Made by a program: the position numbers and the translations under genes. A stretch of DNA of 64,000 nucleotides from Bacteroidota bacterium. GTDB lineage: Bacteria; Bacteroidota; Bacteroidia; 2-12-FULL-35-15. Below are positions 8,560 through 11,150 of the stretch, piece by piece. The DNA lies in the NCBI GenBank assembly GCA_025963725.1, contig JAOQAE010000003.1:558001-622000 (forward strand), given 5' to 3'. How positions within the stretch are numbered: position 1 is the first letter of the stretch; every line of letters starts with the position of its first letter. A model generated the notes under the pieces. It saw only the letters and a program-made list of their open reading frames with translations. It was not told the DNA's origin and ran no database searches.

Positions 8560-8642
8560 GAAAGATTAGACGAGTAAAGCGTATTTATCAACGAAAAATT
8601 GTTGATGGGGGAATTTTAGCGCGGGAGAGGGGTTGTTTGGTT

Positions 8643-8672
8643 TCTCGCAGAGGCGCAAAGAGCGCAGAGAAG
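8643..8672. repeat. short interspersed repeat (GCAGAGGCGCAAAG type)
   Basis: This tract contains CTCGCAGAGGCGCAAAG and GCGCAGAGA. Related sequence in inverse orientation is at 39761-39823. It lies in the 245-base gap between the CPBP gene and the transglycosylase promoter and encodes nothing apparent. Confidence 0.6.
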
Positions 8673-8750
8673 GGCTTGGTATATTTTACCCGTATGAAGG
8701 TGTGTATCCGAATAAACTTTAGCCCGGAAAGGCTCTAAGGGGCAGATATA

Positions 8751-9509
8751 TTAGTCATTTGGCTTTATTTGATATGCAATAAAACAGCTCAAAGCTAAAA
8801 ACAACGTATCGACATAGCCTCCACTGGAAAGCAGAAATCCACCTGCATCTAATTTATAACCTGTAAGCAATTCCACTTTTGAGCTAAAAATGTTATTGGC
8901 AAAATGAAATCCTAAAGGAAGCCATATACTTTTAAATTTCAGATATAATAGAGTTAAAAGAACTCCTGCAAAAAATAAGTTTGGCCCCTGCAATAAAATA
9001 TTGATTTCAGGATTTAAGAGATGTATTAACATAAATAATAGGCCTGAAATTATTGACAGGTAAAGCTTAGAGGAATATTTCAGAAGAAAATTTAAAACAA
9101 TTCCTCTAAACATTAGCTCTTCCCATGAAATAATAACGAGTGTTAGTCCCAATCCTGAACTAAGGGTATCGCCATTTTCAGGGGTTGAAGCCTGAATGTT
9201 ACAAAACGCTAATTTAAGACAGTGAGAAATACTTAAAACGATTAGCCAGATGATTGCACCAATTAAAAAGTGATGCAGCTTTAAAATCGACCAATGCTCC
9301 TTTAAAGTGGGAATTAATTTAGCTAAGAACGCTAATAATATATTTAGAATTATAAAAAAAGAGCATAACAGGAACGAAGAATTGATTTGAATAAAGGAGA
9401 ATACTTTTGGTACAAGTACCATAAAGAAAATATTAGCGCTAACATATAACGCTAAAATAACGAGGGAAATAATATTACCCTTTTTGTAAAGACTCATTCT
9501 GAAGCTCAT
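8751..9509 (-). CDS. CPBP-family intramembrane metalloprotease
   Basis: A strongly hydrophobic protein of about 252 residues with roughly seven or eight membrane helices. It carries the three CPBP (Abi) motifs: EELMFRG (EExxxR), the conserved His in MLIHLLNPE, and HFANN (HxxxN). Such proteases process prenylated or secreted peptides, or give immunity in bacteriocin loci. Here the gene is the last of a cassette behind a radical SAM gene and a RiPP-like precursor, so leader cleavage or self-immunity is likely, which is inference. An upstream in-frame ATG at 9566 would overlap the radical SAM gene by 92 bases. The ATG at 9509 or at 9497 is more plausible, giving an overlap of 23 to 35 bases. Base composition is clearly A+T-richer than in flanking genes. 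Confidence 0.85.
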   Translation of the reverse strand: MSFRMSLYKKGNIISLVILALYVSANIFFMVLVPKVFSFIQINSSFLLCSFFIILNILLAFLAKLIPTLKEHWSILKLHHFLIGAIIWLIVLSISHCLKLAFCNIQASTPENGDTLSSGLGLTLVIISWEELMFRGIVLNFLLKYSSKLYLSIISGLLFMLIHLLNPEINILLQGPNLFFAGVLLTLLYLKFKSIWLPLGFHFANNIFSSKVELLTGYKLDAGGFLLSSGGYVDTLFLALSCFIAYQIKPND

Positions 9510-10641
9510 TATAATGAGGCCATATTTCTTTTCTAAACCCGGGTAAATATTGGTCTGCGTGTTCAAATAAAGCGCTGCAAATATCTACTGTATCATTTTC
9601 TTTTCCGCCACCAACCATTTGTGCTGTGCAAGGAACGCATTGATCTTGAAAAGAACAAAATTTACATGGAAACATTTTACTCTTAAAGGAACGCCCTGCT
9701 CTATAAGATTCAAATTCTCTGAAAAGATCGGAATTATAACTCTCCTGAACATCACTTTCAAGCAGGTTGATTCCTGGAATAGCCTTTGAGAATTCCATTG
9801 TGGGGTTTTCTTCATATGCTAATGATGGACAAGGTAAATGATTACCATGTAAGTCAACATAGCTGAAGATGGATTCTCCGCCGCAAGCATGGTGCTCTGT
9901 TGTTGGAAACGTTAATTGAAATCTCCTGTTTAGATAAGTGGCAAATGAAGGAGTAACTAATATCTCCATCTCGATTTTTTTCTCTGATAACATCCAATTA
10001 ACTACAAGTAAGCTGTAGGCATTGAGCATTTTTTTTAGATCTAAACCTAAGTCTTCCGCAAAAGAAAAAGCTCGTCCGATCAACTTAACATTTTTGATAT
10101 TCAATCGGGTGGCTCCGACCTCTTTTGCAAAGTCGATTAGATCAGGAGCTTCCTCAACGTTTATTTGCGCCATTACAAATGCCATTTCTAAATGCAAATC
10201 GCCATTTAAAACCCGCTCATGTTTAGAAACTAATTTTATATTAGTTATCGTTTTCTGAAAAGTGCCTTTGCCCCTGATAGAATCATGTGTTGCTGGAGTA
10301 ATACCGTCGATACTTACAATTAAACCCTTTAACGCAGGTTTGGCTAATAAAGGCTGAACGACATGAAATACCGTCAGATTTGTATTTATGCTAACTTTAA
10401 GACCAACAGTATCGGCATAATCCAAAAGCTCTGCCAAATCTCTTCTGTACACAGTAGCTTCACCACCAAGAATGGTAATGTATTTTGTATTGTCTTTAGA
10501 TAGTTTGTAAAAAATTGTTTTTAATTCCTCGGTAGTTTGCTGAGGTCTTGGGCTATCTTGATCCAATCCCACCCCACAGTGCTTGCAACTAATATTGCAC
10601 TTACTCGTTGTATATATGGTAACTGATTTTTCCTTTGACAT
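9475..10641 (-). CDS. radical SAM/SPASM peptide-maturase candidate
   Basis: A 388-residue radical SAM enzyme. The [4Fe-4S]-SAM cluster motif is Cys15, Cys19 and Cys22 (CNISCKHC), followed by the GGEAT SAM-binding block. The C-terminal half has the SPASM auxiliary-cluster pattern: a Cys before GGES with a later G-N-H-L-P-C, the CKFCSFQDQCVPC cluster, and a last Cys in DICSALF. SPASM enzymes commonly modify ribosomal peptides, forming thioether or C-C crosslinks or epimerising residues. A precursor-like gene ends 61 bases upstream, and a CPBP protease gene overlaps downstream. The specific reaction cannot be deduced. The gene is A+T-rich like the rest of the cassette. Confidence 0.9.
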   Translation of the reverse strand: MSKEKSVTIYTTSKCNISCKHCGVGLDQDSPRPQQTTEELKTIFYKLSKDNTKYITILGGEATVYRRDLAELLDYADTVGLKVSINTNLTVFHVVQPLLAKPALKGLIVSIDGITPATHDSIRGKGTFQKTITNIKLVSKHERVLNGDLHLEMAFVMAQINVEEAPDLIDFAKEVGATRLNIKNVKLIGRAFSFAEDLGLDLKKMLNAYSLLVVNWMLSEKKIEMEILVTPSFATYLNRRFQLTFPTTEHHACGGESIFSYVDLHGNHLPCPSLAYEENPTMEFSKAIPGINLLESDVQESYNSDLFREFESYRAGRSFKSKMFPCKFCSFQDQCVPCTAQMVGGGKENDTVDICSALFEHADQYLPGFRKEIWPHYNELQNESLQKG

Positions 10642-10702
10642 AAGACACGGAAATACAACTCTACCTAAAAGCAGAATTTAATAAAACAAACTCTTAAAAA
10701 TG

Positions 10703-10996
10703 TTAGATAGCTTCTGTGTCCCTATTCTCAAGGGTAACAAGAGCCTTGGAATTGCAGCATCCCATACCTATTCCCCAATCAGCTTTAGCAGATGTTTGGA
10801 ATCCAGAAAGGCGTCCGGCCAATCTTACCTGCTCTTGTGCTGTTTTAGCGAAAGCTTCTGCTCTTCTCATTTCTTGAACATTTAAATCAATTTTTGCTTC
10901 CGCAACCGCAACGGCAGGGTCTACTAAAAAGCGACCTAAAAACTTAAGATCAGTCGCCAATAAACACTCGAGTTTGGCAATGTTACTTTTTTCCAT
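10703..10996 (-). CDS. putative RiPP precursor peptide (Nif11/NHLP-like leader)
   Basis: A 97-residue small protein. The ATG at 10996 is chosen because a complete promoter ends about 40 bases upstream; the frame runs on further upstream but only through non-coding A+T-rich DNA. Residues 13-45 resemble Nif11/NHLP-type leader peptides: an amphipathic helix with FLVDPAVAVAEAKIDL, compared with the family's pattern of L..P..A.AEA.I.L. The last 30 residues differ in character: ADWGIGMGCCNSKALV, with one Trp, two adjacent Cys (80 and 81) and several Gly, followed by a short acidic tail. Such a Gly/Cys stretch is a typical modifiable core. The gene lies directly before a radical SAM/SPASM gene. It could alternatively be a small unrelated protein; no precise family match is claimed. 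Confidence 0.72.
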   Translation of the reverse strand: MEKSNIAKLECLLATDLKFLGRFLVDPAVAVAEAKIDLNVQEMRRAEAFAKTAQEQVRLAGRLSGFQTSAKADWGIGMGCCNSKALVTLENRDTEAI

Positions 10997-11036
10997 AATG
11001 TATAATTTTAAGGTTAGACTTAATGAGATATATATA

Positions 11037-11066
11037 CAAATATATAATAAGTTACGTAAATAGCAA
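11037..11066 (-). promoter_or_regulatory. promoter of the RiPP-like cassette
   Basis: On the minus strand: TTG at 11066-11064, exactly 19 bases, then TATATTTG at 11044-11037. This is an ideal Bacteroidota promoter. The predicted start gives a leader of about 35 bases before the precursor ATG at 10996. All three cassette genes follow on the same strand without a visible terminator. Confidence 0.75.
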
Positions 11067-11150
11067 GAAATCCGTAGGTTACAGAAATTAAATATGATAG
11101 AGCAATCAATTAATTGGGAGGTTTGTATATAAACAGGTCTTAATATAGCT

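Follow-up and report, generated by a model that had tools for sequence, protein, structure and literature searches.

One precursor of a ribosomally synthesized and post-translationally modified peptide (RiPP) is Os1348/PosA of Pseudomonas. Its leader is of the NHLP type without a double-Gly site (PMC12636437), and antibiotic activity is reduced when the precursor is lost (PMC7726476). In Pseudomonas, the pos and pfl clusters that encode related leaders carry no protease gene (PMC12636437). Other systems include one. A precursor, a radical SAM enzyme and a protease form the core and start of skfABC (PMC8172795), and in epe a radical SAM enzyme is accompanied by the M50 intramembrane protease EpeP, a proposed agent of cleavage and export (PMC10885120). 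Here we describe a three-gene cassette that can be compared with these systems. It lies in a stretch of 64,000 nt from a Bacteroidota bacterium (assembly GCA_025963725.1, contig JAOQAE010000003.1, positions 558,001 to 622,000; hereafter the window) and carries genes for a 97-aa peptide (P0001), a radical SAM protein (P0002) and a CPBP intramembrane protease (P0003). The cassette is foreign and was acquired horizontally. We think it reasonably likely, with appreciable doubt left, that it is a self-contained RiPP cassette in which P0002 modifies the WGIGMGCC tail of P0001, most probably via Cys, and the CPBP protease removes the leader.

First, the leader of P0001 resembles that of Os1348. NF038399, the model of the Os1348 family in the NHLP clan, matches P0001 with 21.7 bits (E 1.5e-4) against a cut-off of 40 bits, so that P0001 is not a member of this family by score. 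PF14407 and TIGR04509 match the leader at E 0.0026 and E 0.009, again below cut-off, and all three matches fall within residues 4-57. In the AlphaFold model, helices are formed by residues 5-15, 17-25, 27-33 and 40-63 (pLDDT 67-81 in this block), and the tail from 65 to 97 is disordered. A Foldseek search of this model against 350,542 PDB chains returned four matches up to E 10, the top three being Os1348 chains (6lk7; E 0.56-1.4). Alignment to 6lk7 with VIA-align gave Z 5.2 over 62 residues, a value within the chance range for helical bundles. Sequence and predicted fold, each weak alone, agree and point to an NHLP-clan leader of the Os1348 type. The initial annotation had described a RiPP locus with a Nif11/NHLP-like precursor, a radical SAM enzyme and a CPBP protease. 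This reading is well supported, with weak model matches for the NHLP-clan part, except for the Nif11 part, which is dropped: no Nif11 model of Pfam or NCBIfam matched up to E 1. A proteusin precursor was also rejected, as the NHLP leader model TIGR03793 gave no match up to E 1 and P0001 has no GG.

The distinct Gly/Trp/Cys-rich end attributed to the 97-residue peptide is indeed present. W74, the sole Trp of P0001, stands in a Gly-rich stretch, and together with C80 and C81, two of the three Cys, it lies within ADWGIGMGCCNSK. None of the named families in the libraries searched has a match to this core.

Second, P0002 is a radical SAM protein with a SPASM-like set of Cys. PF04055 matches it with 57 bits (cut-off 29.5; E 3.4e-15), and the cluster motif CxxxCxxC is found at C15/C19/C22. 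Seven auxiliary Cys (253, 271, 326, 329, 335, 338 and 355) were compared with the SPASM pattern CX9-15GX4C-gap-CX2CX5CX3C-gap-C. They follow its order, except that CX2C replaces CX3C, one spacing being shorter by one. Thus, of the full SAM and SPASM cysteine sets claimed initially, the first is complete and the second keeps the order with this deviation. SPASM domain models alone do not match the C-terminal part of P0002, through which the full-length MftC, PqqE and NirJ2 models do align. Among the 25 NCBIfam matches listed, every equivalog scores far below its cut-off, the best being AhbD (79 of 500 bits) and MftC (78 of 265 bits). Judged by these scores, P0002 belongs to no named maturase family among the models searched. 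A maturase with its own RiPP recognition element (RRE) was rejected, because only 14 residues precede the cluster motif and P0002 thus lacks an N-terminal RRE; the first cluster Cys is at residue 15, whereas the alignment with SkfB begins at residue 110 of SkfB. The segment also has no apparent gene for a separate RRE. A structure predicted for P0002 without alignment had a pLDDT of 37 and was of no use.

The models that match P0002 also suggest other chemistries. MftC and PqqE, found among the full-length matches, are both peptide-modifying and make C-C bonds, the N-terminal part of P0002 matches WgkB, and P0001 has just one Trp, W74, with Gly-rich surroundings. The same cassette may therefore install a C-C or C-N crosslink at W74, or epimerise residues as in NHLP-type proteusins, which contain epimerised residues (PMC8326336); C80 and C81 would then be catalytic handles or a disulphide. 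We regard this as rather unlikely, and the MftC and PqqE matches are far below their cut-offs. AhbD and NirJ2, which belong to heme pathways, match at similar scores, and P0001 might on this basis be an accessory partner of a P0002 that acts on a small molecule, outside RiPP biosynthesis altogether. The leader-like fold with its disordered Cys/Trp tail, and the fact that the transcription unit also encodes an intramembrane protease, make this quite unlikely.

The top PDB match of P0002 is the sactisynthase SkfB (E 4.8e-11). The SkfA sequence, validated by the SkfA family model, was compared with the tail of P0001. A local match, MGC..SK, was found, and both peptides end in Ala-Ile. This match was equalled by 387 of 20000 shuffles locally and by 58 of 20000 when anchored at the end, and it was noticed post hoc, so that it is a lead only. 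Together with the shared skfABC gene order, it would suggest an SKF-like sactipeptide system in which C80 corresponds to the donor Cys4 of SKF and P0003 to SkfC, itself a CPBP protein. However, the SkfA model (TIGR04404) matches neither P0001 nor its tail, and the SkfB model (TIGR04403) gives 37.9 bits for P0002 against a cut-off of 300 and finds matches in all 14 control genomes. For these reasons the locus is not filed as SKF. Since an RRE and skfE/F/H are also missing here and the core match is weak, a system of this type is very unlikely.

Third, the CPBP protease gene annotated initially is confirmed. P0003 matches PF02517 with 65.3 bits (cut-off 22.4), and EELMFR, FMLIH and HFANN at 126, 155 and 198 show that the active-site motifs EExxxR, FxxxH and HxxxN are intact.

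The minus strand carries the three genes head to tail, and gene reading confirmed the positions first annotated (Table 1). The peptide gene is separated from the radical SAM gene by 61 nt, and the latter overlaps the CPBP gene. The promoter had been called ideal. It is not an ideal sigma-70 promoter, whose consensus is matched at 9 of 12 positions, but it is a good site of the Bacteroidota type, TTG-N19-TATATTTG. When the upstream region was shuffled by mononucleotides, 43 of 5000 shuffles contained a site of this kind. The promoter consensus of Bacteroidota is TTTG / TANNTTTG. The upstream element is a good fit to it and is a predicted promoter.

Table 1. Features of the cassette (positions in the window)
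Feature	Position	Strand	Remarks
Promoter, Bacteroidota-type TTG-N19-TATATTTG (predicted)	11037..11066	-	40 nt before peptide ATG; shuffle test
Putative precursor P0001, 97 aa	10703..10996	-	leader about residues 1-63; tail 65-97 with DWGIGMGCCNSK
Radical SAM protein P0002, 388 aa, SPASM-like Cys set, no N-terminal RRE	9475..10641	-	
CPBP (Rce1-like) intramembrane protease P0003, 248 aa	8751..9497	-	start overlaps P0002 gene by 23 nt
Acquired low-GC segment between gatA and mltD	8606..11150	.	

We infer the substrate relation, the type of modification, cleavage, export and any antibacterial or signalling role because of the locus anatomy and the skf, epe and other named precedents. The N-terminal helical domain of P0001, being of the Os1348 type and without double-Gly, would dock on the RRE-less P0002. 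P0002 would then abstract hydrogen from the disordered tail and install a modification, most likely a thioether that links C80 or C81 to a residue close by, with a Trp crosslink as the second choice. Two Cys in a disordered, Gly-rich tail speak for the thioether, as do the auxiliary Cys of P0002, which are typical of such chemistry. Finally, the CPBP protease would cleave the leader at the membrane and may aid release of the product. Membrane proteases are proposed to have such a role in skf and epe.

It is also conceivable, if somewhat unlikely, that in such a RiPP cassette P0003 confers self-immunity, with leader removal falling to an unlinked protease. Immunity to bacteriocins is a known role of CPBP proteins, and the pos and pfl clusters do without a protease gene. 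Yet apart from the CPBP gene the segment has no exporter or processing gene, and the catalytic motifs of P0003 are intact.

Several points weigh against the self-contained cassette in which P0002 modifies the tail and P0003 cleaves the leader. All leader matches of P0001 are below curated cut-offs, and its structure model is a single-sequence prediction with a mean pLDDT of 62. In a local profile of NHLP-like peptides, which is dominated by one genus too much to discriminate, P0001 ranks 6th among 5000 shuffles. The similarity of P0002 to SkfB is generic, the CPBP protein could serve immunity instead of processing, and neither an exporter gene nor a separate immunity gene is found in the three-gene segment. 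Conservation of the core residues could not be seen, as no homologue of P0001 was found to show any. This search covered 36 genomes of the genus, 395 of the phylum, plasmids, phages and viral contigs; with no homologue at all, none was seen without a radical SAM neighbour. The core pattern WGxGxGCC has four other matches in 395 genomes of the class, none of them in a leader-like peptide, and nothing relevant in the viral contigs read. For P0002, no relatives were found at E 1e-20 in 395 genomes of the class, and 198 genomes of the phylum gave generic matches of 24-31% only; none of the contexts read around these resembles this locus. A scan of genome contigs with single-sequence patterns of P0002 gave only a 23% match, and relatives there may be missed by it.

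The foreign origin is seen from the composition and the insertion site. GC content at third codon positions (GC3) is 0.29-0.33 in the three genes against 0.57-0.70 in the measured neighbours, and overall GC falls from about 0.50 to 0.31-0.39 exactly at the cassette. GatA was used as a query in 36 genomes of the genus, of which 32 matched, and the loci of 29 relatives were read. In 21 of these 29, mltD directly follows gatA (about 120-290 bp apart in those measured), and none of the three cassette genes is present in any of the loci. Thus, the cassette is foreign, because its GC3 of about 0.3 differs from that of its neighbours and because gatA and mltD are adjacent, with nothing between them, in the 21 relatives. 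It sits whole between the two genes and brings its own predicted promoter. From about position 8605, the closest relatives share the sequence upstream of mltD. The segment shows no apparent transposase or integrase. Beside the insertion, at 8640-8675 of the window, there is a GC-rich CTCTGCGCTCTTTGCGCCTCTGCG repeat, and a similar repeat occurs in the empty site of one relative (L053).

Similar peptides were observed elsewhere. In another genome of the phylum (L046:2908-5517), an Os1348-type peptide of 85 aa ending in CVTGGGGGCGIA is encoded directly before two radical SAM/SPASM genes similar to the ranthipeptide maturase PapB; this is a looser precedent for the pairing of an Os1348-type peptide with radical SAM enzymes. 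Besides P0001, the genome of the cassette itself encodes another Os1348-like peptide, of 87 aa (22.9 bits, E 6.5e-5), at L036:6713-10570 (G000:C6, about 907700-911600). Its gene stands between an ATP-grasp-like gene and a gene for a radical SAM protein similar to HemW/HutW, and genes for QueG-like and QueD-like proteins lie upstream. The 35 other genomes of the genus lack this peptide, and the site is possibly another orphan modified-peptide locus. At L037:7211-7832, two adjacent Os1348-like peptides end in GWDCKVPWGQT and EEIRVPWS, and the next gene encodes a protein of 310 aa. Four genomes of the same class (L040, L041, L042, L043) have arrays of several NHLP-type precursors in tandem, which carry Gly-Gly sites and differ in their tails.

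The locus is plausibly an orphan RiPP cassette that adds a new family to a natural-product type already known. A bolder and rather doubtful proposal is a new RiPP class, in which the folded Os1348-type leader replaces the RRE and presents the Gly/Trp/Cys-Cys tail to a SPASM-like enzyme that lacks an RRE and belongs to no named family, with cleavage and release by the CPBP protease. If true, it would be among the smallest complete radical SAM RiPP pathways. With one precursor, one maturase and one protease, the cassette is a simple case for testing how RRE-less enzymes recognise leaders of the NHLP clan.

Among known systems, proteusins of the polytheonamide and landornamide type share a long NHLP-clan leader and radical SAM maturases with this locus, but here TIGR03793 does not match, double Gly is absent and the enzyme architecture is another. 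The similarity to Os1348/PosA (pos, pfl; PDB 6lk7) lies in an NHLP-clan leader without double-Gly, predicted here to be helical, a peptide of less than 100 aa and modifying genes directly downstream. The leader of P0001, however, matches the family model below cut-off, and radical SAM and CPBP genes take the place of the HEXXH enzyme, the MNIO-nitroreductase fusion and the acetyltransferase of pos/pfl. The skf system of Bacillus subtilis, which makes the sporulation killing factor, has the same gene order of precursor, radical SAM enzyme with auxiliary Fe-S and putative protease. It differs in its leader, in the RRE that P0002 lacks, in having five auxiliary Cys in SkfB against seven, and in ABC and thioredoxin genes that this locus does not have. 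In the epipeptide system epeXEP of B. subtilis, the protease is of the M50 type, ABC immunity genes are present and the precursor is different; again, the minimal set is a precursor, a radical SAM enzyme and an intramembrane protease, as it is here.
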